Shown here: piece after piece, positions 37,521 to 51,090 of the stretch
How positions within the stretch are numbered: position 1 is the first letter of the stretch
How the letters are laid out: the number at the start of each line of letters is the position of its first letter
Virus record (IMG/VR): IMGVR_UViG_3300044729_002905
Span: 1 to 52,913 of that record
Length of the DNA: 52,913 bases
Direction: 5' to 3' (one strand)
Source of the DNA: a virus
Notes under the pieces: model-generated
What the model was told of the DNA's origin: nothing
The model's database searches: none
What the model saw: only the letters and a program-made list of their open reading frames with translations
Program-made: the position numbers and the translations under genes

Positions 37521-37560
37521 GTACCAGGCATGATGCCGGGGGATCGAATCCCCCACTCAG
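37517..37560 (+). ncRNA. tRNA-like minihelix element, copy 1
   Basis: Outer stem CTGAGT/ACTCAG encloses a small hairpin GGCA-TGA-TGCC and a T-arm-like hairpin GGGGG-ATCGAAT-CCCCC. The last stem is joined directly to the outer stem's 3' strand, as T-arm and acceptor are in tRNA. There is no D arm or normal anticodon arm, so it is not a tRNA. The upstream gene's stop codon is part of the outer stem. Copies at 37856 and 38232 preserve the fold with different bases. Confidence 0.65.
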
Positions 37561-37855: not shown

Positions 37856-37904
37856 AGTTGATTCGTACCCAAGCGAGTCCGGTGGTGCAAACCCACCGGC
37901 AACT
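37856..37904 (+). ncRNA. tRNA-like minihelix element, copy 2
   Basis: Outer stem AGTTG/CAACT; small stem TCG/CGA; T-arm-like hairpin CCGGTGG-TGCAAAC-CCACCGG joined directly to the outer stem. Outer plus T-arm helix is 12 bp, the same as tRNA acceptor plus T stem. Followed at once by the 28-29-nt repeat. Confidence 0.65.
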
Positions 37905-37931
37905 ATTACCCCCAGCGGAGATGGGTACCGC
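37904..37931 (+). repeat. 29-nt direct repeat after tRNA-like element, copy 2
   Basis: TATTACCC, CC, then AGCGGAGATGGGTACCGC. Second copy of the repeat at 37561-37589. It ends six bases before the ATG at 37938, again placing it in a ribosome-binding position. Confidence 0.75.
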
Positions 37932-37937
37932 ACACAC

Positions 37938-38237
37938 ATGGAGTTATCCATGGATCTGACTACAGGTTGGAAGCCACATGATATACCAGGTGGTTATCGC
38001 CTGGTTTACTCAGATGACTTGGTCGGAGGCATATCCATTGTTACTGGACCGCGAGGTTCAGGACTGATGGCAGCTAACGACCCAGGTCAAGAGACCACAT
38101 ACGAAGTGTGGTTTCCAGGATTAGCTGATCCAACTGGTCACCTAACACTTGATGAGATTAAAGGAATCATCAAGTATTTGCGTCAGCGAGAAGAAGAATT
38201 TATATACACAGCGTATAGCGATTATGAAAACAACTGA
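37938..38237 (+). CDS. Small early protein (99 aa)
   Basis: Begins MELSMDLTTGWKPHDIPGGY; a second ATG follows at 37950. Contains PTGHLTLDEIKGIIKYLRQR, a helical end with Tyr/Glu. No family recognised. Its stop codon is inside the outer stem of the third tRNA-like element. Confidence 0.6.
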   Translation: MELSMDLTTGWKPHDIPGGYRLVYSDDLVGGISIVTGPRGSGLMAANDPGQETTYEVWFPGLADPTGHLTLDEIKGIIKYLRQREEEFIYTAYSDYENN

Positions 38238-38278
38238 TCCGTAAAAGCGGGTGACCAGGTGCAAACCCTGGTCCAGTT
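38232..38278 (+). ncRNA. tRNA-like minihelix element, copy 3
   Basis: Outer stem AACTG/CAGTT; small stem CCG/CGG; T-arm-like hairpin GACCAGG-TGCAAAC-CCTGGTC, again contiguous with the outer stem (12 bp stacked). The 7-base loop is identical to copy 2 while every stem differs in sequence, which is compensatory evidence for the fold. A further hairpin GCCGCTC/GAGTGGC follows at 38282-38300. Confidence 0.65.
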
Positions 38279-38735: not shown

Positions 38736-38775
38736 TTTGCAACTAACCCTGAGTAACACCAGGGTTTTCTGCAGA
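38736..38775 (+). ncRNA. Two-part intergenic hairpin, copy 1
   Basis: Outer stem TTTGCA/TGCAGA, symmetric internal loop ACT/TTC, inner stem AACCCTG/CAGGGTT, loop AGTAACAC. It has only a short T-run within, so strong termination is unlikely unless attenuated. Copies at 39062 and 39552 keep the outer stem with wobble and compensatory changes. Confidence 0.7.
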
Positions 38776-39061: not shown

Positions 39062-39101
39062 CCTGCACTTAACCCTGAGTAACACCAGGGTTTTCTGCAG
39101 G
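39062..39101 (+). ncRNA. Two-part intergenic hairpin, copy 2
   Basis: Outer stem CCTGCA/TGCAGG is perfectly Watson-Crick; internal loop CTT/TTC; inner stem AACCCTG/CAGGGTT with loop AGTAACAC. It starts two bases after the upstream stop codon. Confidence 0.75.
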
Positions 39102-39551: not shown

Positions 39552-39597
39552 CTTGCACTTAACCCTTCTCATCAATGATGAGTGGGTTTTCTGCAGG
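39552..39597 (+). ncRNA. Two-part intergenic hairpin, copy 3 (variant apex)
   Basis: Outer stem CTTGCA/TGCAGG (one wobble), internal loop CTT/TTC as in the other copies, then AACCC/GGGTT capped by a different apical stem (CTCATCA/TGATGAG). Conserved base and changed apex argue for a structure, not a simple sequence duplication. Confidence 0.7.
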
Positions 39598-40363: not shown

Positions 40364-40392
40364 ACGTCCTGAGTATGACGTTAAACTGCTCA
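40364..40392 (+). ncRNA. H-type pseudoknot, copy 1
   Basis: Stem 1 ACGTC/GACGT and stem 2 TGAGTA/TGCTCA interleave, with loops of 1 (C), 1 (T) and 5 (TAAAC) bases. These lengths fit a classical compact pseudoknot. An ATG spans stem 2 and stem 1 and opens a 12-codon frame (MTLNCSVLYQLI) whose stop overlaps the start of the next gene (TAATG), so the element may couple or control its translation. Confidence 0.65.
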
Positions 40393-40412
40393 GTCCTTTA
40401 TCAACTCATCTA

Positions 40413-40571
40413 ATGACAACTCAACCACTTGATGAGAACTACAATGCAGATCTTCTTGACGCATGGTCTGACCTTGCGTACCAGCAGGAGCAAGCAATGC
40501 GAGAAGAAATGCAACCACCTAACCAAACCAACGAGGTAACCAATGACTCAACCACAGACTCAACAATATAA
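40413..40571 (+). CDS. Small acidic early protein (52 aa)
   Basis: From ATG 40413 to TAA 40569-40571: MTTQPLDENYNADLLDAWSD followed by a Gln/Glu-rich helix and a Thr/Asn-rich tail. Start overlaps the stop of the pseudoknot's leader peptide. The 3' end overlaps the next frame by 29 nt. No family recognised. Confidence 0.55.
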   Translation: MTTQPLDENYNADLLDAWSDLAYQQEQAMREEMQPPNQTNEVTNDSTTDSTI

Positions 40572-40923
40572 TGATGATGTAATACTACACATCATCGTTA
40601 TCCTGACCATTCTCGCCACACTGTTCCTCCAATTCATTTCACTACTATGGCCCTCCAACCAGTCCAACACGAAATCGCTGCAGTCGTTGGGTACACCCCA
40701 CTCACCAACGATGAAGGACAAGAGCCTGCCGACACCACACTCTGTTTCCACACCGTTGAAGACAGAGGAGGTTGGCCGCACATCTACTGGAAAGGTGAGT
40801 GGTACCCCGTCCCAACCCTCGAGGAAGTCGAGGAGTGGGTCTTCGACTCAGTCTGCTTTACGCCAGACGAGGACGAAACGGAACCCGACGACCCCAACAG
40901 TTGGCTCTCAATCCTTAACCTAA
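40543..40923 (+). CDS. Possible membrane protein overlapping the acidic protein gene
   Basis: A 126-residue frame. Residues ~13-36 (VILHIIVILTILATLFLQFI) are a convincing transmembrane helix lying outside the overlap. The remaining ~90 residues are Ser/Thr/Lys/Pro-rich and run out of frame across almost the entire gene 40647-40928, as expected for an accidental or overprinted reading. The N-terminal membrane part may be real even if the tail is not under selection. Confidence 0.4.
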   Translation: MTQPQTQQYNDDVILHIIVILTILATLFLQFISLLWPSNQSNTKSLQSLGTPHSPTMKDKSLPTPHSVSTPLKTEEVGRTSTGKVSGTPSQPSRKSRSGSSTQSALRQTRTKRNPTTPTVGSQSLT

Positions 40924-40928
40924 TTTAA
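40647..40928 (+). CDS. Acidic early protein (93 aa)
   Basis: MALQPVQHEIAAVVGYTPLT begins a globular-looking, Trp/Glu/Asp-rich protein (GGWPHIYWKGEWYPVPTLEE) ending in a conserved-looking acidic helix. Its amino-acid composition is far more typical than the frame overlapping it, so it is the better coding choice here. No ribosome-binding site is seen. No family recognised. Confidence 0.6.
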   Translation: MALQPVQHEIAAVVGYTPLTNDEGQEPADTTLCFHTVEDRGGWPHIYWKGEWYPVPTLEEVEEWVFDSVCFTPDEDETEPDDPNSWLSILNLI

Positions 40929-40994
40929 GTATTAAATTGCACGTTAAATTTACCAATACTACCCATGTATTGGTAATAGTGTTAATACTACAAG

Positions 40995-41033
40995 CTGGGC
41001 ATCCACTGTGGATATACATGGTGTAAGTCCCAG
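40995..41033 (+). ncRNA. CTGGG/CCCAG structured RNA element, copy 1
   Basis: Outer stem CTGGG/CCCAG; then CA/TG, a bulged T, an inner stem CCA/TGG with a long apical part, and on the 3' side an unpaired TAAGT. Lies 23 nt before the ATG at 41056. Other copies: 41276, 43834, 47293. Confidence 0.7.
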
Positions 41034-41055
41034 CATTCACCTCAACTCAACTGTT

Positions 41056-41262
41056 ATGACTGAAGAGAACCAACGGTATCACCTCATCATTAACGTTGAT
41101 GAGAAGTATACCATTGTCAATGCACTAGCCTTCTATCATGCTCATCACACCCTTGGTGCATCACTTGATGAAGATGAGCGTGAACAATATGCACTCGCAT
41201 TCAAGGAAGATGGTGCAACTCTTGTGGATACTTTAGCTACAAGAGTGGCTAACACTTTCTAA
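41056..41262 (+). CDS. Small early protein (68 aa)
   Basis: Start ATG 41056 (MTEENQRYHLIINVDEKYTI). An in-frame ATG at 41008 would place the RNA element inside the protein and is rejected. NALAFYHAHHTLGASLDEDE is helical with a His cluster. No family recognised. Confidence 0.6.
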   Translation: MTEENQRYHLIINVDEKYTIVNALAFYHAHHTLGASLDEDEREQYALAFKEDGATLVDTLATRVANTF

Positions 41263-41275
41263 TACCTGGGCATCC

Positions 41276-41304
41276 ACTACGTAAGTATGTGGTGTAAGTC
41301 CCAG
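41276..41304 (+). ncRNA. CTGGG/CCCAG structured RNA element, copy 2
   Basis: Same outer stem, CA-T-...-TG and TAAGT loop. The inner stem here is CCAC/GTGG extended by TAC/GTA with loop GTAA, different from copy 1 but still paired. Starts 14 nt after a stop codon. Confidence 0.7.
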
Positions 41305-41333
41305 TATCAACCTAAACCTACAGTAAACACACC

Positions 41334-41657
41334 ATGGGAAAACACGAACTTCACTTCACCAGCCAAACGTACACTCGTCACGATGGCAGTGAATACACCC
41401 CACGCCTCAACGATGATATGCGCATCACATTAATCATCGAAGAACTTATGGCTATCTACCAACGAGAACAGAAGCGTCCTATGGGACACAATGATCTTCC
41501 GTATGGTTCAGATGAATATCTATTGGAAGCTATTGGTTATCTAGAGAAAGCAATTGAATGGCCTGGTGAAATCGAAGATTCATGTGGTGAACCACCTATC
41601 ACTATGGCTGAAATGCATTCAGCCGCATGGAAAGAACATCAAGAAGCACATCGGTAA
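41334..41657 (+). CDS. Hypothetical early protein (107 aa)
   Basis: MGKHELHFTSQTYTRHDGSE opens an acidic, helical protein (DMRITLIIEELMAIYQREQK). The later ITMAEMHSAAWKEHQEAHR is a His-rich helix. No family recognised. A long hairpin follows its stop. Confidence 0.6.
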   Translation: MGKHELHFTSQTYTRHDGSEYTPRLNDDMRITLIIEELMAIYQREQKRPMGHNDLPYGSDEYLLEAIGYLEKAIEWPGEIEDSCGEPPITMAEMHSAAWKEHQEAHR

Positions 41658-41669
41658 CAACATCAACTA

Positions 41670-41710
41670 AACCTTGGTACTGCCAGATAAACACTGGCCT
41701 ACCACAGGTT
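41670..41710 (+). other. Long three-segment hairpin downstream of 41657
   Basis: AACCT/AGGTT, TGGTA/TACCA and GCCAG/CTGGC nest into one stem with loop ATAAACA. No T-run follows. It lies 12 nt after a stop codon and resembles the other early-region stems in position but not in sequence. Confidence 0.5.
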
Positions 41711-41769
41711 AAGAAACAGTTAAGACATCACCCCCAACGTAAGTGCTATGCAAAGGCGCTGTGCCTTGC

Positions 41770-41794
41770 AGTCTACTTTAAATTTGAGTAGACT
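41770..41794. promoter_or_regulatory. Inverted repeat upstream of GIY-YIG gene (possible operator)
   Basis: AGTCTACT (41770-41777) and AGTAGACT (41787-41794) are perfect 8-bp arms around an AT-rich 9-base centre. A nearby repeat of CTTTAAATTT (41775 and 41809 regions) flanks it. 33 nt before the nuclease gene, so it could be an operator for that protein's winged-helix domain. Confidence 0.45.
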
Positions 41795-41826
41795 AATAAT
41801 GCAAAGCGCTTTAAATTTATTAAACC

Positions 41827-42408
41827 ATGGAAGTCACTGATTATTACACTTATGCATATTTAGATGAAAATAAGAAACCATATTACATTGGTAAAGGACG
41901 AAGTGCACGTGCATTAACTAAACATGCAAATGTAAAGATACCAAACAAAGATAATATCTTGATTCTTAAAAAGAATTTAACTGAAAAGAATGCATTAAAA
42001 CATGAACAATATATGATTTTTCTATATGGTAGAAAAGTTGATTGTTCTGGAATTCTTGAAAACAAACTTATTCAAGGCAGTCAAAGTTTAACTAAAGGAC
42101 ATATGTTATATAACAAAGAAGATCCTAATGAATGGAGCGATTTAATGCTTTGTGCTATTTTCGGTAGCAAAACTGCAGCTTGTGTGCTTTTATTTATTCA
42201 GAAAAACAATGAAGCACATGCAAATCGAATTGCCAATACTTTTGGTTTTGGATTAAATATGGTTCAACGCCAGTTAAAAAGGCTAGAGCAAAATTATATT
42301 TTAAATAGCCGTGTAATGGGAAACGTTAGACTGTATTCTTTTAATACACGTAATCCAACAGTAAACAATTTAAAAGTTTTTTTAAATTCTTGTTTAATTA
42401 ACAAGTAA
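41827..42408 (+). CDS. GIY-YIG homing endonuclease fused to a winged-helix-like domain
   Basis: A 193-residue protein. The nuclease part is residues ~5-90: DYYTYAYLDENKKPYYIGKG carries the GIY- and YIG-type motifs, with conserved Arg ~25-28, His ~33 and the catalytic-type Glu60 in ALKHEQYMIFLYGR. Residues ~105-180 (LLFIQKNNEAHANRIANTFG, then MVQRQLKRLEQNYIL and GNVRLYSFNT) look like an ArsR-type winged helix, unusual for this nuclease class. The gene is markedly AT-rich, indicating recent transfer. Confidence 0.8.
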   Translation: MEVTDYYTYAYLDENKKPYYIGKGRSARALTKHANVKIPNKDNILILKKNLTEKNALKHEQYMIFLYGRKVDCSGILENKLIQGSQSLTKGHMLYNKEDPNEWSDLMLCAIFGSKTAACVLLFIQKNNEAHANRIANTFGFGLNMVQRQLKRLEQNYILNSRVMGNVRLYSFNTRNPTVNNLKVFLNSCLINK

Positions 42409-42541
42409 TGTTTCTTTTATTATATTTGTTTACAAGAGCACCGCCTTGTTGTGCAAGTGTTACAACTCATAACATGAGTCAAACCACTTGACAGAAGGTG
42501 GTAAGCTAACAACGTTCAATTACTTCACACCATTCAAAACT

Positions 42542-42760
42542 ATGACTGCACTTAACGACACTCCCAAACCACGCATCCCTGATGCAATTGATAATCAACG
42601 ATTGCAAGCTATGTCAATCGTTGCCAAGATGAAAGAATCTGCTGATCGACATGGTATTGGTTTTGTCGGCGGCTTTGTAGACGCCGATGGAAATAAATTT
42701 GTAATGACAAATATGTCTGATGAAGACACCAATGCACTCATGCCTGGAGATCTTCAGTGA
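42542..42760 (+). CDS. Small early protein (72 aa)
   Basis: Start ATG 42542 (MTALNDTPKPRIPDAIDNQR). A longer frame from 42488 begins inside a promoter-like stretch and is rejected. The C-terminal HGIGFVGGFVDADGNKFVMT looks like a small beta hairpin domain. Stop overlaps the GTG of the next gene. Confidence 0.6.
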   Translation: MTALNDTPKPRIPDAIDNQRLQAMSIVAKMKESADRHGIGFVGGFVDADGNKFVMTNMSDEDTNALMPGDLQ

Positions 42761-43038
42761 CCATAACTAAACCAAAGACTCAAACTAAAACTCAACCTAA
42801 TACACGTCACCTGCCTGCTCAGCCAGGTGACATATGGGTTACTCAACGCAAGAATAGTCTTGGCGTTGGATCTAAACTTATGTGTACCGATGAAGAGTGT
42901 GATGAAAACCCAGGCTTCTATCGGTTCTACTACTTGATTGGCTGTGCCAACATTGGGCCATGGACATTTCTTGACACCAAGACAATGGAAGGGTTTAATC
43001 TTTACAAACGTAAAGGAACTATCTACAACAAACCATGA
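42757..43038 (+). CDS. Hypothetical early protein, GTG start (93 aa)
   Basis: GTG 42757 overlaps the previous stop (GTGA). After a Thr/Lys/Gln-rich start, HLPAQPGDIWVTQRKNSLGV and GFYRFYYLIGCANIGPWTFL suggest a small SH3-like beta barrel. Three Cys. No family recognised. Confidence 0.6.
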   Translation: MTITKPKTQTKTQPNTRHLPAQPGDIWVTQRKNSLGVGSKLMCTDEECDENPGFYRFYYLIGCANIGPWTFLDTKTMEGFNLYKRKGTIYNKP

Positions 43039-43118
43039 GCTGGCCCGAAACATTTGTATTGTGCACATTCTTTATATGTGGCACATACCTTACTATCCAA
43101 ATCATTAAAGATGACTAA
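43035..43118 (+). CDS. Tiny membrane peptide (27 aa)
   Basis: From ATG 43035 (ATGA overlap with previous stop) to TAA 43116-43118. MSWPETFVLCTFFICGTYLT then IQIIKDD is almost wholly one transmembrane helix. It overlaps the next gene by eight bases. Its clean coupling on both sides argues it is translated. Confidence 0.45.
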   Translation: MSWPETFVLCTFFICGTYLTIQIIKDD

Positions 43119-43281
43119 ACAAATTATCTACAAAGAAATTATTGAAATTGATGGTCGTGAATACAAAGTTGCAGAGTTTGATTATTCTGAGTTTGTAAAC
43201 GATGCCATCAACCAAGATTTTATTACTGATAACAACCTGGATATTATTAAATGGGTTGTTTCTGACATCACTGAAATCTAA
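43111..43281 (+). CDS. Small acidic early protein (56 aa)
   Basis: Start ATG 43111 (MTKQIIYKEIIEIDGREYKV). Short strand-turn-strand then acidic helix. An upstream start at 43054 would add the membrane peptide region in another frame and is rejected. No family recognised. Confidence 0.6.
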   Translation: MTKQIIYKEIIEIDGREYKVAEFDYSEFVNDAINQDFITDNNLDIIKWVVSDITEI

Positions 43282-43305
43282 TTAATTTTAAATCATTAAA
43301 TAAGT

Positions 43306-43629
43306 ATGACATTCACAATCACTGATCATCAATCCGAACTTATCGAAGATCTTCTCGAACGTTTTAACTTTGAGAAAGTCCAGATCGCAATGACTGCACT
43401 TGATTGGAAGTGGGCTAACGTTATGGAAGACGGTAGCTTAACTGTTCCAACTATTGAACGTATGAAGCGTTCATGCAGAAATATTCTTTACCGATCTATT
43501 AATGATAAGTCGGTAGGCACTGGTGGATTCGAAGCTTGTTACTATCCACCAGGCGAAGATGATATCGAAGAAGAAACCTTTGCACTTAAATTTGTTGTTA
43601 CTCAATCTTTTACTAACGGAGATTGGTAA
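43306..43629 (+). CDS. Conserved phage protein of the FEKV/ALDWKW type (107 aa)
   Basis: FNFEKVQIAMTALDWKWANV, then VPTIERMKRSCRNILYRSIN and GTGGFEACYYPPGED followed by FALKFVVTQSF. I recognise this order (aromatic ALxWKW, VPT, GTGGF, then a terminal strand) from many phage early proteins of unknown function. Stop overlaps the next start (TAATG). Confidence 0.65.
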   Translation: MTFTITDHQSELIEDLLERFNFEKVQIAMTALDWKWANVMEDGSLTVPTIERMKRSCRNILYRSINDKSVGTGGFEACYYPPGEDDIEEETFALKFVVTQSFTNGDW

Positions 43630-43826
43630 TGACAAAGAAATCACCTATTAACTTTGACCGTACTATTGCTGGCTTTAACTTGACTGAACATGGTATTAAA
43701 TCGTATACCAAATCATTCAAGCTTGGTCCACTCCAACTAACACTTAACGCACGGCAGTCTGGTATCCTTGGATCTATCAGTATCCCAGGCACCGGTCTTA
43801 GCCGTCGAAACATAAAGATAATCTAA
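43629..43826 (+). CDS. DUF4236-like small beta protein (65 aa)
   Basis: MTKKSPINFDRTIAGFNLTE, then the repeat-like strands LGPLQLTLNARQSGILGSIS and the signature IPGTGLSRR. DUF4236 proteins end in a similar siPGTGLsyR motif. Function unknown. Translationally coupled to the previous gene. Confidence 0.6.
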   Translation: MTKKSPINFDRTIAGFNLTEHGIKSYTKSFKLGPLQLTLNARQSGILGSISIPGTGLSRRNIKII

Positions 43827-43833
43827 AGAAACA

Positions 43834-43872
43834 CTGGGCATCACCTACATAAGTACGGTGTGTAAGCCCCAG
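43834..43872 (+). ncRNA. CTGGG/CCCAG structured RNA element, copy 3
   Basis: Outer stem conserved; inner stem CACC/GGTG extended by TAC/GTA; the internal loop reads TAAGC instead of TAAGT. Lies eight bases after a stop codon and 31 nt before the ATG at 43904. Confidence 0.7.
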
Positions 43873-43903
43873 CATTCACCTCAACCTTGACAACAACTTA
43901 ACT

Positions 43904-44080
43904 ATGGAAAGCAACCTTAATTTGTTTCAACGCACCAATCTTGCACAGTGTGCAGCCAAACGCGCATATGAAAACTGTGGTGATGAACACAGGTTTCACG
44001 GAGAGTTCTGCACAGCACGTGCATGGAACAAATACAAGTGTTACATCTCAACTATTTGTCAGTTTGTAGAACCTAACTAA
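43904..44080 (+). CDS. Cysteine-rich small protein (58 aa)
   Basis: From ATG 43904 to TAA 44078-44080. MESNLNLFQRTNLAQCAAKR opens it. Five Cys are spaced through HRFHGEFCTARAWNKYKCYI and ISTICQFVEPN, with two His that could help bind a metal. No family recognised. A GC-rich inverted repeat GGGGTCC/GGACCCC follows at ~44091-44110. Confidence 0.6.
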   Translation: MESNLNLFQRTNLAQCAAKRAYENCGDEHRFHGEFCTARAWNKYKCYISTICQFVEPN

Positions 44081-44172
44081 AGTACATGCATGGGGTCCCC
44101 CCTGGACCCCCCTGCAAACCTGTACCACGTAGGCACTATTAGTAACACTAGTAATCTCTACTAACTACATTC

Positions 44173-44433
44173 ATGACAATCCTATCCATTGAAGAAACAA
44201 TCATCAATCAATCCCATGTCACAGTTACTGCACTTGTTGAAGACATGCTTCTTCTACACAAAGCAACTTACTTCGAACCTGATGAATGGGCTCCAGCACT
44301 TTGCATTGCAGATTTCCAATTGGATGAGGACGAACAAATCCCTACTGATGAAGATGGCTTCTGTCAGTATCTTGCTGACAGAGATCTTCAATGGCAACTT
44401 GTCGACACATCTGATTGGTATCTAGCATCATGA
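44173..44433 (+). CDS. Hypothetical acidic early protein (86 aa)
   Basis: MTILSIEETIINQSHVTVTA begins an acidic, helical protein (FEPDEWAPALCIADFQLDED). No family recognised. Stop overlaps the next start (ATGA). Confidence 0.6.
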   Translation: MTILSIEETIINQSHVTVTALVEDMLLLHKATYFEPDEWAPALCIADFQLDEDEQIPTDEDGFCQYLADRDLQWQLVDTSDWYLAS

Positions 44434-44630
44434 TTGGTTTCTCTATCGAATTCAAACGTTGGTACCTTGTGATCCGTGGTCCCAAAGGTCGTGTGTACAG
44501 TGCATTTGGTTTTGCAAACCAGATGCCTGTCTTCACACCAGAAAAGACCATGACCTTGCAAGAGTACATGGATGACTATAACGATGCCATTGTCTTTACT
44601 TGTAATGGTGAAGAAATAATGCGCATCTGA
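44430..44630 (+). CDS. Small early protein (66 aa)
   Basis: Start ATG 44430 (MIGFSIEFKRWYLVIRGPKG), preferred over an upstream start because of the ATGA coupling. KRWYLVIRGPKGRVYSAFGF looks like a small three-stranded sheet. The pseudoknot at 44635 begins five bases after the stop. Confidence 0.6.
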   Translation: MIGFSIEFKRWYLVIRGPKGRVYSAFGFANQMPVFTPEKTMTLQEYMDDYNDAIVFTCNGEEIMRI

Positions 44631-44634
44631 TCCA

Positions 44635-44663
44635 ACGTCCTGAGCATGACGTTAAACTGCTCA
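44635..44663 (+). ncRNA. H-type pseudoknot, copy 2
   Basis: Stem 1 ACGTC/GACGT, stem 2 TGAGCA/TGCTCA (all Watson-Crick), loops 1, 1 and 5 bases. The internal ATG (44646) opens MTLNCS in frame with the PcfJ-like gene, whose own ATG is 44691. Confidence 0.7.
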
Positions 44664-44690
44664 ACACTACACACTTACTACGAACTTACT

Positions 44691-46430
44691 ATGCAATTCC
44701 GTCTCCCCACTCAACTACAACAAGAGTTGATGGCGTATGACCCAGCTCTTAAAGCACTGGCTAAACAGCAGACAGTAGCTAACAAAACCAAGAAGACTAC
44801 CCACCCACTGGGTAAACCCAATCAACTTATCCCAACTGAAGTATTGCCAGTATCGTTATATAACGATGCCATTGATAATATTAATTCACAGGCAGCACCT
44901 GACCGTTATCAACTGTTCACACGAATCATTGATCGTGTAGTAACACCGTACGCAATCTTGTATCACTTTGAACAAGTGTGGTATGCAGCATGGCTACCAC
45001 CCAAAGGACAAGAAGATCAGTACGTTTATGGTTACTCATATGCATTCAAGGACAATGCATCTGCATACAAGATGCTTCCTCGTAAGATTCGCGAAAACTT
45101 AAGTAAACTATCTGCATATCATGTTGGTCGTGTTCAGTATTTTACATACAACAAACTAGTAACTAAACAAGATATTATTGATGGGCACGATGCTAGAAAC
45201 TGGAATATTCCTAGTGTTCAAAGCTATTACAAAAAGTCTGGCAACTTGTTTCAACAATTAAAAGGATTTGAAGATCGACTATTTAACACCATTCCTATGT
45301 GGTCCGACAGTCGATCAACCTTTGCTCGGCTCCAGGCAATTAGTCCAGCCTGTGTAATTTTTACCAATGATTACCGTTACGGCCAAGAGTGTACAGCATA
45401 TTGGCAACACAATGACATTACTAAAGCTGTAATTTCATATGACTTGTTGTTTAAACTTATTACTACCTACGCACATAGTAATAGTTATGACGGTGATAGC
45501 TATCGAAAGTTAAATAAATTGCTGCACATTATTGCTACTCCATTTTTTAAGAAATGGATTCAAACAAAATGTGATGAAGTTAATGCAAACTTCTATAACC
45601 CTAACAATCAATTACTTCAATCTATTCGTGCACCATGGGTTCAAATCCATACACTGTTTAATGCCATTGATCTTGTACGTGAAATTTGGCCTAACTGCCC
45701 TATTGATTATTATCAATCCCACATCAATCAACTGTTAAGTTTTAAATCAACACGTCATGGTACGCTTTTAACACAAGCTTGGCTAAACAAACATATGCCT
45801 GTAGCTTCTTTCTTTTCTATTCTTGAAAAAGAATATGATAAAGAAATGAATAGCACACGTACTCGTTATAACTACGATGAAGAACTACAACACCCACGTT
45901 TTTATTATTCCAACTGGACAGATACTATTTCAATGTTAGATACTGTGCTTGCACACAACGCATGCGCAACAGAACCATTAACTCTTGACGTTCCAAAACG
46001 TTGGAGACTTATGGAGTTCCATGATCACATTCAATCTGTTGCATGGAAAGTTAAGAACAAAAACGAATCACTGCCCCAAGACTTGTTCCCTGAACCAGTC
46101 AAGCTTGAACTTGGTTCCAGTAAGTGGACATTCTTTCAGCCGGTTGATACACATCAACTAGCTGCTTGGGGACAAGCCGTACGTAATTGCGTTGGCAGTG
46201 CCAGTGGTTATGCAGATGGTGTTCGTAAGAAGAAACACTTTATCGTGTTGTGTATGATTGATAACAAACCTCAGTTCACTATCCAACTAGAAGTGAACAT
46301 GGGTATGATGTCTGTTAAACAGATCGCTGGTATTGGTAATACCAGGCTTACGGATGAAGAACGTGAGCTTTACACAACTGCATTCAGTAAGGCGTTGACT
46401 CAACGCGAGTCTGCGCTAGCATCTGCATAG
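44691..46430 (+). CDS. PcfJ-like protein (579 aa)
   Basis: MQFRLPTQLQQELMAYDPAL starts a large, mostly helical protein. The C-terminal ~110 residues carry the PcfJ-like signature: PVDTHQLAAWGQAVRNCVGS, YADGVRKKKHFIVLCMID and FTIQLEVNMGMMSVKQIAGI, i.e. a buried hCVG turn, a strand with basic cluster and T-I-x-L-E-V followed by a Q-x-x-G motif. PcfJ occurs on conjugative plasmids and in phages; activity is unknown to me. An upstream in-frame ATG at 44646 inside the pseudoknot could add 15 residues. Confidence 0.75.
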   Translation: MQFRLPTQLQQELMAYDPALKALAKQQTVANKTKKTTHPLGKPNQLIPTEVLPVSLYNDAIDNINSQAAPDRYQLFTRIIDRVVTPYAILYHFEQVWYAAWLPPKGQEDQYVYGYSYAFKDNASAYKMLPRKIRENLSKLSAYHVGRVQYFTYNKLVTKQDIIDGHDARNWNIPSVQSYYKKSGNLFQQLKGFEDRLFNTIPMWSDSRSTFARLQAISPACVIFTNDYRYGQECTAYWQHNDITKAVISYDLLFKLITTYAHSNSYDGDSYRKLNKLLHIIATPFFKKWIQTKCDEVNANFYNPNNQLLQSIRAPWVQIHTLFNAIDLVREIWPNCPIDYYQSHINQLLSFKSTRHGTLLTQAWLNKHMPVASFFSILEKEYDKEMNSTRTRYNYDEELQHPRFYYSNWTDTISMLDTVLAHNACATEPLTLDVPKRWRLMEFHDHIQSVAWKVKNKNESLPQDLFPEPVKLELGSSKWTFFQPVDTHQLAAWGQAVRNCVGSASGYADGVRKKKHFIVLCMIDNKPQFTIQLEVNMGMMSVKQIAGIGNTRLTDEERELYTTAFSKALTQRESALASA

Positions 46431-46441
46431 CCCCCACAGGC

Positions 46442-46475
46442 TGACCCGTCTTATCCTCGACAATAGGGCGGGTCA
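46442..46475 (+). other. Hairpin between PcfJ-like gene and 46482
   Basis: TGACCCG and CGGGTCA form a 7-bp stem around a 20-base apex. It starts 12 nt after the stop and ends seven bases before the next ATG, so it covers the ribosome-binding region. No T-run follows. Confidence 0.5.
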
Positions 46476-46481
46476 CATCCA

Positions 46482-46703
46482 ATGATTAACTACACAGACG
46501 AACAACTACTTGCCATGGCCATGGCAAACATTGGCACTTACATTCATGACAACTCACCTCAGTACATCTTGATTGAAGACCCACGTAACGAAGATGATTA
46601 CGATACGTGGGATTACGGCTGTGAACCATTACCTCATGACCACACTTGGCAACACACATCAATTGATGTGAGTGTAAGCCCAAGTGATGGGGATGTGGCG
46701 TAA
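46482..46703 (+). CDS. Acidic early protein whose stop lies in the tRNA gene (73 aa)
   Basis: MINYTDEQLLAMAMANIGTY begins an Asp/His/Tyr-rich protein (RNEDDYDTWDYGCEPLPHDH). The last five codons and TAA (46701-46703) overlap the 5' acceptor and D-stem side of the tRNA by 15 bases. No family recognised. tRNA processing would therefore cut this message within its last codons. Confidence 0.55.
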   Translation: MINYTDEQLLAMAMANIGTYIHDNSPQYILIEDPRNEDDYDTWDYGCEPLPHDHTWQHTSIDVSVSPSDGDVA

Positions 46704-46774
46704 TCGGTAGCCGCTGCGCACTTAAAATGCGTTGACCATTGGTCGTGTCGGTTCAAGTCCGACCATCCCTACCA
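46689..46774 (+). tRNA. tRNA-Leu (anticodon UAA)
   Basis: An 86-nt class II tRNA. Acceptor GGGGATG/CATCCCT (one terminal G-U), anticodon stem GCGCA/TGCGT with loop CTTAAAA giving anticodon TAA, long variable arm GACC/GGTC, T arm GTCGG-TTCAAGT-CCGAC, discriminator A and an encoded CCA at 46772-46774. There is no intron. It should be functional and would help read UUA codons, frequent in the AT-rich genes. Confidence 0.95.
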
Positions 46775-46794
46775 ATCCATTTGCAATTAAAACT

Positions 46795-47289
46795 ATGCAA
46801 CCTATTGTTACTTACACTAAGCCACAACAAGTATCTGTATTTAAAACAGATAACTATTTTCACATTTCTGTTACTGATGACAACGGAATTGAACAATCAA
46901 TTAAGTTGCCAACCAGTACAACTAAAGTAATTAAAACAGTACAACAAACTCCTGTTGTAATTGAACCAGAAGCTGTTAAACCTTCTATTGTTCGTATTGA
47001 TCGTACAGAAGATGGTCGTCAAATCGAACAACGAATTGAACCAAAAATTGTAAAACTTCCTAGAGAAGAACCTAAAAAATATAAAAAACAAAACCAAAAT
47101 TCAAAACCATTTACATCTAAACTTACACGATCACAAGTAATGGAAATTAAAACAATGCTTTATGATCCAAAGTTTATGGCTACTTATCCATCTTGTTATC
47201 AAGCTTATAAAGAAATCGCTAGTATTTATGGTGTTACTTATATGTGTATTCAGTTTATTCACAAAGGAGTTACCTGGAAAAATGTTTGA
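46795..47289 (+). CDS. Basic protein with C-terminal homing-type HTH (164 aa)
   Basis: Start ATG 46795 (MQPIVTYTKPQQVSVFKTDN); an upstream frame runs through the tRNA and is rejected. N-terminal half is beta-like; the middle is Lys/Asn-rich linker. The C-terminus, TRSQVMEIKTMLYDPKFMAT followed by EIASIYGVTYMCIQFIHKGV and TWKNV, is an HTH closely like those at 48031 and 49726 and at the end of the intron HNH nuclease. A regulatory or nuclease-derived protein is likely. AT-rich. Confidence 0.6.
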   Translation: MQPIVTYTKPQQVSVFKTDNYFHISVTDDNGIEQSIKLPTSTTKVIKTVQQTPVVIEPEAVKPSIVRIDRTEDGRQIEQRIEPKIVKLPREEPKKYKKQNQNSKPFTSKLTRSQVMEIKTMLYDPKFMATYPSCYQAYKEIASIYGVTYMCIQFIHKGVTWKNV

Positions 47290-47292
47290 TTA

Positions 47293-47322
47293 CCTGGGCA
47301 TCTACATAGTGTAAGTCCCAGG
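47293..47322 (+). ncRNA. CTGGG/CCCAG structured RNA element, copy 4 (short)
   Basis: Outer stem CCTGGG/CCCAGG; inner part shortened to CTA/TAG but still flanked by CA-T and TG, with TAAGT unpaired. Starts four bases after a stop codon. The shortened apex with conserved base defines the essential core. Confidence 0.65.
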
Positions 47323-47351
47323 TTTATTAATCCCTTTACTTAATTCACACC

Positions 47352-47708
47352 ATGCTTTCCTACTTCAAACATCTCATCCCTCAGCCCCATGGTTACATGG
47401 ATGAGGACAAACGTTACAACTTGGGCTTAACCTGGACTGATGTAGATGGTCTTACTGACTGTCATAATCTTGAGTTCAGGTACGTACGCAATTCAGAACG
47501 TCTTGCGCTCCAAGGGCAGCCAATGCCTGATGGTAGCTGGCAATACGTAGAAGCCAACGGTACTGTTCATACTATTACTCCTGAACGCGCCAAAGCATTC
47601 ATGGATAAAACACATGAACACGCTACTATTATGTGCGCAATGCTAGATAAAATGCGTGAAGCTGGCATGATGGATAACATTATTGACACCAGTGCTCAAG
47701 CTGCTTAA
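47352..47708 (+). CDS. Hypothetical early protein (118 aa)
   Basis: MLSYFKHLIPQPHGYMDEDK starts a protein with a strand-rich first half (LTWTDVDGLTDCHNLEFRYV) and a Met-rich helical end (ATIMCAMLDKMREAGMMDNI). No family recognised. Followed by an intrinsic terminator. Confidence 0.6.
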   Translation: MLSYFKHLIPQPHGYMDEDKRYNLGLTWTDVDGLTDCHNLEFRYVRNSERLALQGQPMPDGSWQYVEANGTVHTITPERAKAFMDKTHEHATIMCAMLDKMREAGMMDNIIDTSAQAA

Positions 47709-47731
47709 GCTACTGACGAAACACAACTCAG

Positions 47732-47759
47732 CCCCCGTGCAAACGGGGGTATTTCTTTT
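47732..47759 (+). terminator. Rho-independent terminator
   Basis: CCCCCGT and ACGGGGG form a 7-bp stem with a GCAA tetraloop, followed by TATTTCTTTT. The next gene starts at the base after it, so its message must begin by read-through or have no leader. Confidence 0.85.
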
Positions 47760-48050
47760 ATGCAACCAGAAGAACTGCAACAACTCATTCAACAAATCAA
47801 TGACAACATTCCTGATCACACATGGGATCTGGTAAAAGATGCAGCTATTGCACAGATTGTAGATCTAATGGATCTCAATACTTTGCTTAAGCTTGCAGAG
47901 TTGTCACTGTCTGAGTACTATCACGAACACAAAGATGAGATCATTCAAGATCTTGTTTCATTTGTTGGTATTGACACAACAGTACACACATTAGATTCAC
48001 TTCAACTTGACAAAGTTCTTGTAACTACCAATGAAATGTCTGAAGTGTGA
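47760..48050 (+). CDS. Small acidic helical protein (96 aa)
   Basis: MQPEELQQLIQQINDNIPDH opens an entirely helical acidic protein (LNTLLKLAELSLSEYYHEHK). Start is immediately after the terminator's T-rich tail, so there is no room for a normal leader. No family recognised. Its end overlaps the next gene by 20 nt. Confidence 0.6.
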   Translation: MQPEELQQLIQQINDNIPDHTWDLVKDAAIAQIVDLMDLNTLLKLAELSLSEYYHEHKDEIIQDLVSFVGIDTTVHTLDSLQLDKVLVTTNEMSEV

Positions 48051-48369
48051 TAGTAAAAACACTCGTGTTACTTGCACTGTTCATTCAGAAACAAACACTA
48101 AACGGTATTGCCGATGTCTTGATTGCAATCAAAAGTTTCAAACTATTGAGCGTTACGTCAAGTACCACCGGGGTCCCAAACGTGGTGGTAAACTAGCTGA
48201 CACACAAGGAATCAAAAATGGTAATGCAGTTTTAACTGAACAAAACATTTTAGATATCCGTAAATTAAAAGCAGAAGGCAAATCAAACTTTGCAATCTCT
48301 GTAATTTATGGAATCAACCGTGGTCATGTATCACGAATTGTCAACCACAAAGTCTGGGCTCATGTCTAA
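48031..48369 (+). CDS. Zinc-ribbon plus helix-turn-helix protein A
   Basis: A 112-residue protein. MKCLKCDSKNTRVTCT and RYCRCLDCNQKFQTIERYVK form a four-Cys zinc ribbon like that of NrdR. Residues ~70-112 (QNILDIRKLKAEGKSNFAIS, then VIYGINRGHVSRIVNHKVWA) form an HTH. No ATP-cone is present, so it is not NrdR. Paralogue of 49726-50073. Probably a transcription regulator or a derivative of homing-nuclease DNA-binding modules. Confidence 0.7.
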   Translation: MKCLKCDSKNTRVTCTVHSETNTKRYCRCLDCNQKFQTIERYVKYHRGPKRGGKLADTQGIKNGNAVLTEQNILDIRKLKAEGKSNFAISVIYGINRGHVSRIVNHKVWAHV

Positions 48370-48661
48370 ACACATCAAGATTATTCGATTCAAAGTTGGT
48401 GATCGCGTTGCTGAAAAACCAAAAGACAATTACATTCCAACTATCAGGCCAGAAAAAACAACTGTTGTATTGCGTAATTCAACCCAACGTATTGGTGTTG
48501 TAACCAATGTATTTGAAAAGAAAGATGCACGCAAACACACCTACACTTACTACGATGTAGCTTGGGATAACGGCAGGTCATCAACACATGCACAGTTCCG
48601 TTTGTGCCACGAACATGAACTAGCTGGTGTGCTCCAGGATTACCGCAATGCTATTGAGTAA
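48362..48661 (+). CDS. Hypothetical SH3-like protein (99 aa)
   Basis: Start ATG 48362, overlapping the previous gene by eight bases. FKVGDRVAEKPKDN, then TQRIGVVTNVFEKKDARKHT and YYDVAWDNGRSSTHAQFRLC give the strand order of a small SH3/KOW-like barrel. Likely nucleic-acid or protein binding. No family confirmed. Confidence 0.6.
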   Translation: MSKHIKIIRFKVGDRVAEKPKDNYIPTIRPEKTTVVLRNSTQRIGVVTNVFEKKDARKHTYTYYDVAWDNGRSSTHAQFRLCHEHELAGVLQDYRNAIE

Positions 48662-48691
48662 CTTAATTACACACACAAGAGGAAACAACTA

Positions 48692-49060
48692 ATGACTAAC
48701 CAACAACACCCCATCACCCCGCCACCGGATCTGGTAGAGCAGTGGCTAAAAGAGTTTTACGGCGCGAAGCTTGAATACGTAGCTGAGGCTTCCATTCATC
48801 TTGCCGCCCGCGCTGCCCAATGGGGCGGAGACAAGGAGCTAAAAGCGTGCTGTGAGTGGTTACACGATACTTGTGTTGAAGATCCTGAAGATATAGTTCC
48901 AGAACTCCGCGCCGCCCGCCGCCCCAAGCCGCTGAGCTTGAAGGAGCAGGCGCTGGAGACGCTACAGCGGATTCGCAAGGATGGATACCCTTGCAATTTT
49001 CAAGAAGACTCTGATTGGGACACCATCCGCCGCGCACTGGAGGCCTTGCTCGATGACTGA
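48692..49060 (+). CDS. Picocyanobacteria-like protein, GC-rich (122 aa)
   Basis: MTNQQHPITPPPDLVEQWLK opens it; HLAARAAQWGGDKELKACCE and LKEQALETLQRIRKDG are strings I associate with small proteins of Synechococcus/Cyanobium genomes and their phages. GC content is visibly higher than in flanking early genes, suggesting recent host origin. Good leader AAGAGGAAAC before the ATG. Function unknown. Confidence 0.65.
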   Translation: MTNQQHPITPPPDLVEQWLKEFYGAKLEYVAEASIHLAARAAQWGGDKELKACCEWLHDTCVEDPEDIVPELRAARRPKPLSLKEQALETLQRIRKDGYPCNFQEDSDWDTIRRALEALLDD

Positions 49061-49301
49061 CCTCTCCCCCGCCGCGCAGGCAATTTTCACTGCTCAGGCC
49101 AAACAACGATGCTTGAACGAATGGGATCACGTCAATGATCCTCCGTGCCACCCAAGTGACAACGACTGGAACGGATGTTATCAATGCGTTGATCGCCGTG
49201 GACTTGCTGCCGCCTTGCGAGCTGTTGTACAAGAACTTAAGTATTTTGGTATCACTGAGAAAAACATTCTCGCCATCGCCGCCGAGCTTGAAACCCAGTA
49301 A
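49053..49301 (+). CDS. Picocyanobacteria-like protein, partner of previous (82 aa)
   Basis: Start ATG 49053 overlapping the previous stop by eight bases; an upstream in-frame start at 48981 lies in the preceding gene and is rejected. MTDLSPAAQAIFTAQAKQRC, then RRGLAAALRAVVQELKYFGI. Four Cys. The same pair order is what one would expect of a transferred host cassette. Confidence 0.6.
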   Translation: MTDLSPAAQAIFTAQAKQRCLNEWDHVNDPPCHPSDNDWNGCYQCVDRRGLAAALRAVVQELKYFGITEKNILAIAAELETQ

Positions 49302-49315
49302 CCAACATCCCTTCT

Positions 49316-49474
49316 ATGTCTGCTCAACCACGGATCTTTACAGTTGACGAACTTGATGAGTTTTGCCTTTGGTGGTGGGGCTCAGACAATGACGAGCGTA
49401 CAGTCACTGATGTAATCGAAAGCGGAAGCATGACTGCGTTTGCTGAAGCTTGTATTGCCCGCTGGGGTAAGTAG
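49316..49474 (+). CDS. Small Trp-rich protein (52 aa)
   Basis: From ATG 49316 to TAG 49472-49474: MSAQPRIFTVDELDEFCLWW, then WGSDNDERTVTDVIESGSMT and a short helix. Two Cys. Composition like its GC-richer neighbours. No family recognised. Confidence 0.55.
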   Translation: MSAQPRIFTVDELDEFCLWWWGSDNDERTVTDVIESGSMTAFAEACIARWGK

Positions 49475-49481
49475 TCCGATC

Positions 49482-49502
49482 AACTTATGAAACTATCTTG
49501 TC
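49482..49502 (+). repeat. Duplicated gene-start fragment (copy of 49721-49741)
   Basis: AACTTATGAAACTATCTTGT plus C occurs here and again at 49721, where it is the start of the zinc-ribbon gene (MKLSC). Here the frame stops after seven codons (MKLSCLM). It is either a relic of a duplicated gene or a leader peptide ahead of 49513. Confidence 0.7.
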
Positions 49503-49512
49503 TCATGTAACT

Positions 49513-49713
49513 ATGACTGATCACAAACAACTGATAACTGAAATCAAAGTCATTCAAGATCTTGAAGCCATGTTAGATCAAGCTATACAAGCTGCCGAGA
49601 CTCTCCATGATTGCTGGATTGAACGTACTGGCCTCAAGATCGAAGATGACCCCTATGTAGAAGATGCTTGTTCCACAATTCTTTCTATCCGCGCTGAGCG
49701 TTTAGCTAATTAG
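49513..49713 (+). CDS. Small helical acidic protein (66 aa)
   Basis: MTDHKQLITEIKVIQDLEAM begins an all-helical protein with QAIQAAETLHDCWIERTGLK. It follows the truncated MKLSC leader by ten bases. No family recognised. Confidence 0.6.
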   Translation: MTDHKQLITEIKVIQDLEAMLDQAIQAAETLHDCWIERTGLKIEDDPYVEDACSTILSIRAERLAN

Positions 49714-49725
49714 TTTGATTAACTT

Positions 49726-50073
49726 ATGAAACTATCTTGTCCTAAGTGCCAAGCAAAAGCACGTGTTCGATCTGCGGAACACACACCAACTGAAATACAT
49801 CGTTGGTTTACTTGTACTAACTGTAAATTTAAATTTAGAACTGTTGAAAGATATTATCTTGTTAAACCAATTTTGATTAACAAACCTAAGTTAACCACAC
49901 AAAAATTACAAGGTAGTAGTAATCATGCTGCTGTATTACAAGAACAAGATGTTGTTCGATTAAGAACAATGGCTAAACAAGGAACTACATCTAAAGAGCT
50001 TGCTAAAGTATTCGGTATGTCTCAATCACATGTAAATCGCATACTTAGATATCAAGCTTGGAAACATGTGTAA
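49726..50073 (+). CDS. Zinc-ribbon plus helix-turn-helix protein B
   Basis: A 115-residue paralogue of 48031-48369. MKLSCPKCQAKARVR and WFTCTNCKFKFRTVERYY are the zinc ribbon. VVRLRTMAKQGTTSKELAKV and FGMSQSHVNRILRYQAWKHV are the HTH. Identity to protein A is moderate, but domain order and the end (W-[AK]-H-V) agree. A-rich codon use suggests older or different transfer than the GC-rich cassette before it. Confidence 0.7.
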   Translation: MKLSCPKCQAKARVRSAEHTPTEIHRWFTCTNCKFKFRTVERYYLVKPILINKPKLTTQKLQGSSNHAAVLQEQDVVRLRTMAKQGTTSKELAKVFGMSQSHVNRILRYQAWKHV

Positions 50074-50190
50074 TTAAACAACACACTCTTTATTGTTCTT
50101 GAGATCAGCAACAGATTTGTTTTGTTCTTTGACCCAGCGGTTAAGCTGTTCTTTTTTAACAGCAAAGTAAATTAATTTTGCAGGGCTCAT
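50074..50190 (-). CDS. Small gene on the opposite strand in the early block (38 aa)
   Basis: From ATG 50190 to TAA 50074-50076, which abuts the zinc-ribbon gene's stop. MSPAKLIYFAVKKEQLNRWV, then KEQNKSVADLKNNKECVV: basic, helical, natural composition. It is the only minus-strand candidate among the early genes. A 16-bp palindrome lies six bases upstream of its start. No ribosome-binding site is seen. Confidence 0.45.
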   Translation of the reverse strand: MSPAKLIYFAVKKEQLNRWVKEQNKSVADLKNNKECVV

Positions 50191-50195
50191 GGATC

Positions 50196-50211
50196 TGTAG
50201 TAATTACTACA
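50196..50211. promoter_or_regulatory. 16-bp perfect palindrome (possible operator)
   Basis: TGTAGTAATTACTACA reads the same on both strands. It sits between the minus-strand small gene and the plus-strand GP88 gene, where a dimeric HTH protein could repress both. One candidate binder is encoded immediately to the left (49726-50073). Confidence 0.5.
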
Positions 50212-50269
50212 AAATTGTATTTGATTTTTTGTTATGCGGTAGTTTGCTGCGTAACAAAACTTAGTTGAC

Positions 50270-50298
50270 TTGTCCTAGGCATGACATTAAACTGCTCA
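50270..50298 (+). ncRNA. H-type pseudoknot, copy 3
   Basis: Stem 1 is TGTC/GACA, with a C-G pair of the other copies replaced by T-A (compensatory). Stem 2 is TAGGCA/TGCTCA with one mismatch and one wobble. Loop TAAAC is kept. The internal ATG (50281) opens MTLNCS in frame with the GP88 gene. Confidence 0.6.
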
Positions 50299-50319: not shown

Positions 50320-51090
50320 ATGAATTTGCTTAACTTTTCTACGGGTAATGCCAAGCTTGGCAAACGGTTAATCTTTAGTTTGCCAGCAGGTTATTCTTGT
50401 CCGCATGCTGGTGTGTGCAAAACAATGGCTGATCGCACCACAGGAAAGATTACTGATCTGCCACAAGAGAACGGGCCAAGCTGGCAAGACTATCGTTGCT
50501 TTGCTGCAATGGCAGAAACCAGACCAGGCGTACGTGAATCACGCTGGAGCAACTGGGATCGAATCAAAGAAGTAATGTATTCTGTTGATCGACCAGAAGA
50601 AAAACTTGTACTGTTAACTCAACTTATTCATGACTCTGTTCAAGCTGCACAACCTGTACGTGAACCTTGCGATCTTGTACGTGTGCACGAGAGTGGTGAT
50701 TTTTATACTGAGTTGTATTTCCGTGCATGGCTCCAAGTTGCTAGGCAAAATCCTGATCTTAAGTTTTATGCCTACACAAAATCTTTGGGTATGTGGTATG
50801 AGTCACGTCATGTAATTCCAGATAACTTTTATTTGACTGCATCAGTTGGCGGTACGCTTGACTATCTGTTGCCTAAGTATCCAGAAGTTTTTTATCGTGT
50901 TGCTTATGTTGTTTACACAGAAAAACAAGCTGAGCAAATGGGACTTGAAATTGATCATGATGATAGTCATTGCTTTGGCCCCAGCTCTTTTGCTTTGCTT
51001 GTACACAATGTTCAACGTGCTGGCTCCGAAGCATCCAAAGCATTGGCTGCTCGACGTAAGAACGGCCAATGGACTGGTTACAAAAAATAA
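50320..51090 (+). CDS. GP88 family phage protein (256 aa)
   Basis: MNLLNFSTGNAKLGKRLIFS, LPAGYSCPHAGVCKTMADRT, RCFAAMAETRPGVRESR, then VRVHESGDFYTELYFRAWLQ and KFYAYTKSLGM. This is the order of the mycobacteriophage Gene product 88 family (N-x-K, slPAG-x-x-CPxAxxC, RCyA, VRxHxSGDFy, YTKS). Cys and His positions suggest a metal site. Biochemical role unknown. ATG 50320 is preferred; an in-frame ATG lies in the upstream pseudoknot at 50281. Confidence 0.75.
   Translation: MNLLNFSTGNAKLGKRLIFSLPAGYSCPHAGVCKTMADRTTGKITDLPQENGPSWQDYRCFAAMAETRPGVRESRWSNWDRIKEVMYSVDRPEEKLVLLTQLIHDSVQAAQPVREPCDLVRVHESGDFYTELYFRAWLQVARQNPDLKFYAYTKSLGMWYESRHVIPDNFYLTASVGGTLDYLLPKYPEVFYRVAYVVYTEKQAEQMGLEIDHDDSHCFGPSSFALLVHNVQRAGSEASKALAARRKNGQWTGYKK

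Follow-up and report, generated by a model that had tools for sequence, protein, structure and literature searches.

The viral record IMGVR_UViG_3300044729_002905 of the IMG/VR database comprises 52,913 bases, which were analyzed in full and are referred to as the window in the following. The window is related to cyanophage S-EIV1, with 76% identity over a stretch of 242 base pairs (bp), and carries on its plus strand three copies of a small RNA pseudoknot, a motif that is also present in S-EIV1. These copies, which a first-pass annotation had already pointed out as recurrent, share the pattern GTCCTRRGYATGACRTTAAACTGCTCA; it is expected 0 times (100 dinucleotide shuffles), and a search of the whole record found none beyond the three. 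With S1 and S2 denoting the two stems and L1 and L3 the loops, the copies and the genes around them are arranged as follows:

40365..40392, plus strand: pseudoknot copy 1, 4/4 and 6/6 pairs with one G-U; S1 40365-40368/40377-40380, L1 40369, S2 40370-40375/40387-40392, junction 40376, L3 40381-40386 (TTAAAC)
40413..40544, plus strand: small open reading frame (ORF) after copy 1, no match in a Pfam search; its ATG overlaps the stop of the frame that opens with MTLNCS within the copy
44430..44630, plus strand: 66-codon gene upstream of copy 2, no match in a Pfam search; its ATG at 44430 overlaps the preceding stop as ATGA
44628..44630, plus strand: TGA stop before copy 2, followed by the spacer TCCAA (44631-44635), which has the 5 nucleotides (nt) preferred in the family
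44636..44663, plus strand: pseudoknot copy 2, every pair Watson-Crick; S1 44636-44639/44648-44651, L1 44640, S2 44641-44646/44658-44663, junction 44647, L3 44652-44657
44691..46430, plus strand: PcfJ-like gene after copy 2 (PF14284, E=1.1e-6)
50271..50298, plus strand: pseudoknot copy 3, S2 with one A-C mismatch and one G-U; S1 50271-50274/50283-50286, L1 50275, S2 50276-50281/50293-50298, junction 50282, L3 50287-50292
50320..51090, plus strand: GP88-family gene after copy 3 (PF17338, E=1.8e-40)

All copies have the same layout, namely an S1 of 4 bp, a C as L1, an S2 of 6 bp, a 1-nt junction (U) and UUAAAC as L3. S1 reads CGTC/GACG in copies 1 and 2 and TGTC/GACA in copy 3, so that the compensatory C-G to T-A change described in the first-pass annotation is real. 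S2 is perfect in copy 2 (TGAGCA/TGCTCA), has its G-U in copy 1 (TGAGTA/TGCTCA) and is weakest in copy 3 (TAGGCA/TGCTCA). The coordinates given there include a fifth A-T pair in S1, which exists in copies 1 and 2 only. Both gene assignments were confirmed by the Pfam matches, as was the course of the frames that open with MTLNCS, two of which are in frame with the genes at 44691 and 50320, while the third ends (TAA, 40411-40413) on the ATG at 40413. A further, degenerate copy proposed at 37280 had to be dropped: it has S1 but no S2, its loop ends in AAAT, and a relaxed descriptor misses it.

The window copies belong to a widespread phage RNA motif, an H-type pseudoknot of ~28 nt. A descriptor search of related phages, as the first-pass annotation had suggested, yielded a large family with the consensus N3C-C-N5A-[UAC]-GN3-N1-6AAAC-UN5, of which the collected viral loci contain at least 606 instances and the same sequences, when reversed, none. 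The viral scans were chosen by partly fixed patterns, and the family counts are lower bounds rather than a census. The pseudoknot is thus not only real but was understated at first, as both stems covary over hundreds of phage sequences. A scan of IMG/VR with the 3' half alone (ATGACRTTAAACTGCTCA) returned at least 105 stretches, nearly all of which contain GTCCTGAGY, a sequence outside the scan pattern. With S2 left free, 257 distinct contexts were recovered, with all five tested pairs in 184 and four in 50; with S1 left free, all four pairs are present in 140 of 172 contexts. Among distinct strand combinations, 45 of 100 are fully paired in S2, compared to at most 29 in 2000 shuffles, and 27 of 47 in S1, compared to at most 11. 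In a set of 48 sequences, 95.8% of cells are paired; 106 cells carry changes in both partners, compared to 31 in shuffles, and the covariation amounts to 0.648 (0.220 when shuffled, at most 0.123 with the partner slid). Given that these 48 were hand-picked from the descriptor matches for diversity, the two scans with one stem left free provide cleaner evidence. The junction that carries the knot is the same in all six viral homologs of the PcfJ-like gene (46–90% identity), and compensatory changes among them include GGUC/GACC and UAAGCA/UGCUUA.

The motif therefore has two interleaved stems, each backed by compensatory changes, and its loops have lengths that suit groove crossing, with 1 nt in L1 over 6 bp and 5–10 nt in L3 over 4 bp. 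When the loops were left free in the scans, 131 of 132 cases had C as L1, the S2 base that directly precedes the junction was always A (132 of 132), and the junction itself was U in 105, A in 17, C in 10 and G in none. L3 ends in AAAC, or rarely AAAG, in 203 of 203 cases and is usually 6 nt long (range 5–9). One rival idea is that the repeats are a DNA-level operator or promoter, or encode a conserved peptide MTLNCS. The window copies do keep the letters themselves, and the annotation of the Staphylococcus copy places a BPROM promoter over it. Across the family, however, the stem letters vary freely with compensation, the strand orientation is strict and the peptide frame is not selected. A promoter was rejected in particular, as no -10 box was found at a fixed offset from the knot. 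The covariation already refutes these explanations, to which we assign a negligible probability. In the first-pass annotation, homologs that keep MTLNCS and lose the pairing had been named as the case that would speak against a pseudoknot; the reverse is seen among the homologs of the PcfJ-like gene, which change the peptide letters and keep the pairing.

Among annotated records that meet the fold and were inspected letter by letter, carriers were confirmed in phages of cyanobacteria, Firmicutes, Actinobacteria, alpha- and gamma-proteobacteria, as well as in a crAss-like phage and a microvirus. They include phages of Synechococcus (S-EIV1, S-H35, S-SM2), Nostoc and Microcystis; of Staphylococcus, Streptococcus, Lactobacillus (phiEF-1.1, phig1e) and Moorella; of Mycobacterium (Labelle), Arthrobacter (Molivia) and Corynebacterium (phi673); of Roseobacter (SIO1), Paracoccus, Vibrio and E. 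coli (Bp7, with 3/4 S1 pairs); and the deep-sea thermophilic phage D6E. By contrast, 257 Gb of bacterial and archaeal genomes yielded only 7 occurrences of one fixed-stem variant, and a search of 28 Gb of E. coli genomes with one sequence variant gave no match, so that the motif looks phage-specific. A plasmid search gave two weak matches in Acinetobacter, of which the one inspected contains a plausible pseudoknot (4/4 and 5/6 pairs). None of the Rfam 15 covariance models, including STAXI, pistol, preQ1, SAM-II and hammerhead, matched at the gathering score or with a convincing E-value, and literature searches by sequence and topic, whose coverage excluded most subscription papers and preprints, found no description of the motif.

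The position of the knot relative to genes is similarly constrained. Among knots in co-directional gene pairs, 393 share the coding strand and 5 have the opposite orientation. Among 553 distinct contexts, the knot starts 5 nt after a credible ORF stop in 132, 6 nt in 53, 7 nt in 34 and 8 nt in 19, while spacings below 5 nt are scarce (9 at 4 nt and 8 in total from -2 to 3). When each independent upstream protein cluster is given one vote, 45 fall at 5 nt, 20 at 6, 11 at 7 and 2 at 4. Copy 2 in the window begins exactly 5 nt after the TGA of the preceding gene, a spacing that the first-pass annotation had overlooked, and in a 40-kb stretch of the annotated complete genome of S-EIV1, five knots begin 5, 5, 6, 11 and 5 nt after annotated stops. 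Even where the gene called upstream lies on the opposite strand, a stop triplet stands at exactly 5 nt in 34% of cases, against a background of ~7%; as these stops close longer open frames than other nearby stops, they point to short ORFs missed by the simple gene caller. The distance from the knot to the downstream start is broader, with a peak at 15–30 nt and a long tail. Directly 3' of the knot, seven bases are poor in G (5–8%, rising to 12% at the eighth) and likely form an unpaired tail.

A spacing of this kind after a stop codon raises the question of a stimulator of read-through or frameshifting, and it is indeed the one with which recoding pseudoknots follow a stop codon. However, extensions of at least 40 codons are not more frequent in the read-through frame than in the alternative open frame (22 versus 27 of 98), no conserved slippery heptamer was found before the stop, and the near-knot stop is mostly TAA (59 of 89 clusters at 5–9 nt). 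We have rejected both forms of recoding, which we consider very improbable.

A second asymmetry concerns tRNA genes. In 26 same-strand pairs, a tRNA lies 1–11 nt from the knot on its 3' side, whereas the reverse order, with a tRNA no more than 20 nt before the knot, was seen once. Nearly all of these pairs have a protein stop 5–9 nt before the knot. Many of the tRNAs are tRNA-Asp of related phages; ~10 of the contexts are independent. A knot in front of a tRNA cannot be its translational leader and belongs to the preceding mRNA.

The first-pass annotation had proposed a translational switch, a protein-binding operator or a very small riboswitch, with the AUG that opens MTLNCS and the following gene as its targets. 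This view finds no support: the position is locked to the upstream stop and not to the downstream start, the motif is found in front of tRNA genes too, which lack start codons, and the neighboring genes have no theme. AUG and MTLNCS were rejected as the functional core because ~20% of the members lack the AUG and the frame is not selected, being no more open downstream than the others (75 versus 93 and 90). The AUG is rather a by-product, since three structural positions supply its letters. A role as a Shine-Dalgarno partner was rejected as well, because such words are no commoner within 40 nt downstream than in a control region (119 of 603 versus 115 of 586). The function is most likely a different one.

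A further rival is an operator bound by a protein, of the kind known from T4 gene 32, or a riboswitch for a small molecule. The architecture and size are near-identical to those of the T4/T2 gene 32 pseudoknot (PMC3014915, PMC535899), and the gene for the single-stranded DNA-binding protein (SSB) forms the second-largest downstream cluster, with 21 members. Yet SSB is one among 143 downstream protein clusters, which in the first set accompany 175 upstream clusters (234 in a larger set), include genes as diverse as RNR, Hsp20, DNA polymerase, scaffold, PhoH and endolysin among the neighbors, and show neither the single metabolic theme of a riboswitch nor the restriction to SSB-gene leaders of the gene 32 element. 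Moreover, knots precede tRNAs, they are conserved in phages of many phyla, which are not known to have a phage protein in common, and their constant bases are explicable by pseudoknot geometry. Given the broad host range, the variable stems and the constant loops, a structural barrier fits better than a phage-specific ligand, and we regard an operator or riboswitch as quite improbable.

Instead, the knot probably shields or punctuates the message of the upstream gene and is not a switch for the next start. We tentatively propose, with confidence somewhat short of even, that these ~28-nt pseudoknots are a mechanical 3' punctuation of single phage cistrons that resists 3'-to-5' decay. From the observed fold, constant bases, orientation and placement beside stops and tRNAs, we infer the following steps at the ribosome and the exonuclease. 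With a stop codon in the A site and a spacer of 5 nt, the first pair would be located near +12, directly in front of the channel through which mRNA enters. The spacer would thus set the first paired base at the mRNA entry of the terminating ribosome, and 5 nt would be the nearest spacing at which this ribosome leaves the knot unmelted. The folded, loop-braced knot would then block 3'-to-5' exonucleases that enter from cleavage sites further downstream, such as the RNase P cut at a tRNA or RNase E-type sites in unstructured spacer, and the upstream cistron would thereby retain a stable 3' end. Where a tRNA follows, cleavage by RNase P would leave the 3' end of the preceding mRNA just beyond the knot.

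The same placement is accounted for by the strongest rival, which invokes translation rather than decay: set against the terminating ribosome, the knot might halt post-termination or read-through ribosomes, or alter release or recycling, and so keep the next ribosome-binding site, leader or tRNA undisturbed. Recoding pseudoknots are H-type and lie 5–8 nt after the A-site codon, a spacer that the 5-nt spacing with its sharp lower wall matches; the preference for TAA and the folded tRNA that comes next in the 26 pairs are also in keeping with such a role. However, some members lie far from credible stops, some form tandem non-coding arrays, and the downstream features have no common class. We consider it rather unlikely.

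Both the fold and the spread of the family are secure. The placement rule holds strongly for roughly half of the members, and several observations weigh against punctuation of the cistron 3' end. Coding-strand placement at such an end, as expected of an exonuclease-blocking element, is seen in ~55% of the contexts; in 247 of the 553 (~45%), no credible ORF stop lies within 12 nt, and unannotated short ORFs account for only part of these. In the window itself, copies 1 and 3 are not stop-locked, the nearest stop of a long ORF being 60 nt upstream of copy 1 (40304) and 197 nt upstream of copy 3. In one locus (L032), tandem pseudoknots at 1306-1730 on the plus strand, four of which fit the strict descriptor, occupy a non-coding region before a gene, with no stop before each, and in Firmicutes-type phages, leaders of scaffold genes carry the knot 4–124 nt after a stop. 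Lastly, one small pseudoknot may be insufficient to halt PNPase or RNase R.

The L032 array and the scaffold-gene leaders look like 5'-leader uses and show that part of the family acts elsewhere, perhaps as 5' barriers. This leads to the alternative that the knot is generally a 5'-end element of the downstream message, either a barrier to 5'-to-3' decay of the RNase J type or a stabilizer or insulator of the leader. Besides these two examples, 41 knots precede the first genes after divergent genes, and in 242 stop-less contexts, a hairpin ends at most 9 nt upstream of the knot in 31%, compared to 10–18% at 30 nt or more upstream. Against it stand the sharp distance to the upstream stop and the broad one to the downstream start, the knots in front of tRNAs, and the divergent cases, which still have the exact 5-nt stop far above background. 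The family also has members in one phage each of E. coli and Vibrio, hosts that are not known to have RNase J, for which reason we give less weight to a pure RNase J barrier. We consider a 5'-end role improbable overall. Blocking of Rho was set aside, as cyanobacteria are not known to have Rho.

Some of the hairpins upstream of stop-less knots (e.g. in L205) resemble intrinsic terminators. Between the strict copies in L032 lie knots with junctions of up to 6 nt and an L3 of up to 12 nt. In five Firmicutes-type loci (L306, L309, L311, L467 and L468), TTATGCA(A) and more of the leader are common between the knot and the scaffold gene, and this shared sequence is possibly part of a larger leader RNA.

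The knot is not the only structure found beside stop codons, as two unrelated elements (D1, D6) of the same phages also begin a few nt after stops. A second element, CUGGG-CAU-[hairpin]-UGUAAGU-CCCAG, without a match in the Rfam scan of the window, has four copies there, one of which ends in GCCCCAG; three of the four lie 3–7 nt after a stop. It occurs in 53 stretches of IMG/VR; of ~45 distinct contexts, 19 have its start 3–4 nt after a stop. The inner stem of this element shows covariation, with 3.65 of 4 pairs formed compared to 2.55 in shuffles (maximum 3.0). In most viral copies of a third element, CUGCAC-UUAACCC..GGGUUUUCUGCAG, the UUAACCC follows a TGA at a distance of 9 nt. In the window, these elements are found at:

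40995-41033, 41266-41304, 43834-43872 and 47294-47321: second element
38738-38774, 39067-39100 and 39553-39596: third gene-end repeat, UGCAC-UUAACCC..GGGUUUUC-UGCAG

That D1 and D6 are stop-proximal too makes position, not one sequence, seem to matter, and the occurrence of unlike structures at one place suggests selection for a stable structure next to the stop codon. It is possible, though we would not call it probable, that the knot and at least two unrelated stop-proximal elements of the same cyanophages represent a phage-wide class of gene-end RNA caps, unrecognized until now, which lie at the closest distance tolerated by the ribosome and set the stability of each cistron independently of terminators.

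The window further contains minihelices that resemble a tRNA acceptor plus T arm, at 37517-37560 (CUGAGU..GGGGGAUCGAAUCCCCC-ACUCAG) and 38232-38278 (AACUG..GACCAGGUGCAAACCCUGGUC-CAGUU), with a similar one near 37860-37905; their first strand includes the gene's own stop codon. It also harbors a group I intron (RF00028, 89 bits) at 21035-21303 on the minus strand. Elsewhere, a hammerhead-like core, CUGAUGAGUCCGUAGGGACGAAAC, lies directly 3' of the knot in L045 and L101, for the former of which Rfam made no hammerhead call at the gathering threshold, and a contig with several knots (L282) carries a pistol ribozyme (RF02679, 48.5 bits) at 5118-5186 on the minus strand.

With this motif, a very small natural pseudoknot, contained in none of the RNA family databases searched, is reused by phages of many bacterial phyla, often several times per genome. 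Its exact 5-nt placement makes the interplay between a terminating ribosome and a downstream structure testable in phages. If the cistrons are indeed protected or insulated, the knot would be a portable part for message stabilization and would help account for the unequal levels of neighboring phage genes without promoters or terminators.

Several known systems invite comparison. The pseudoknot in the gene 32 mRNA of T4, T2 and RB69 has a 1-nt L1 over an S2 of 6–7 bp and a short L3, and its loops are not known to be C and AAAC. Like our motif, it is an H-type pseudoknot of ~28 nt with two stacked stems in a phage mRNA (PDB 2TPK; PMC3014915, PMC535899). It serves just one gene, however, 67 nt upstream of whose start codon it is bound by gp32 together with UUAAA repeats (PMC3014915, PMC535899), whereas the motif is shared by hundreds of unrelated genes and positioned by the upstream stop. 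The pseudoknots of retroviral stop read-through and -1 frameshifting are also H-type and follow an A-site codon, but the motif is gene-agnostic and has neither a slippery site nor a selected read-through frame. STAXI shares with it pseudoknots, tandem occurrence and proximity to SSB genes, but is always tandem and often has UUCG loops (RF01728; PMC2864571), while the motif is mostly single, lacks UUCG loops and received no RF01728 call from cmscan. Pistol, other small ribozymes and the preQ1-I riboswitch are likewise small pseudoknots, either phage-borne or with an A-rich third loop; unlike them, the motif has no extra stem, catalytic core, consistent gene association or Rfam match. In its proposed function as a compact exonuclease block, finally, it resembles exoribonuclease-resistant RNAs (xrRNAs) and the bacterial 3'-end stabilizers, i.e. 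repetitive extragenic palindromic (REP) elements and terminator hairpins. While xrRNAs use a ring fold to block 5'-to-3' decay by Xrn1, the motif is a plain, often stop-locked H-type knot that would block 3'-to-5' enzymes.

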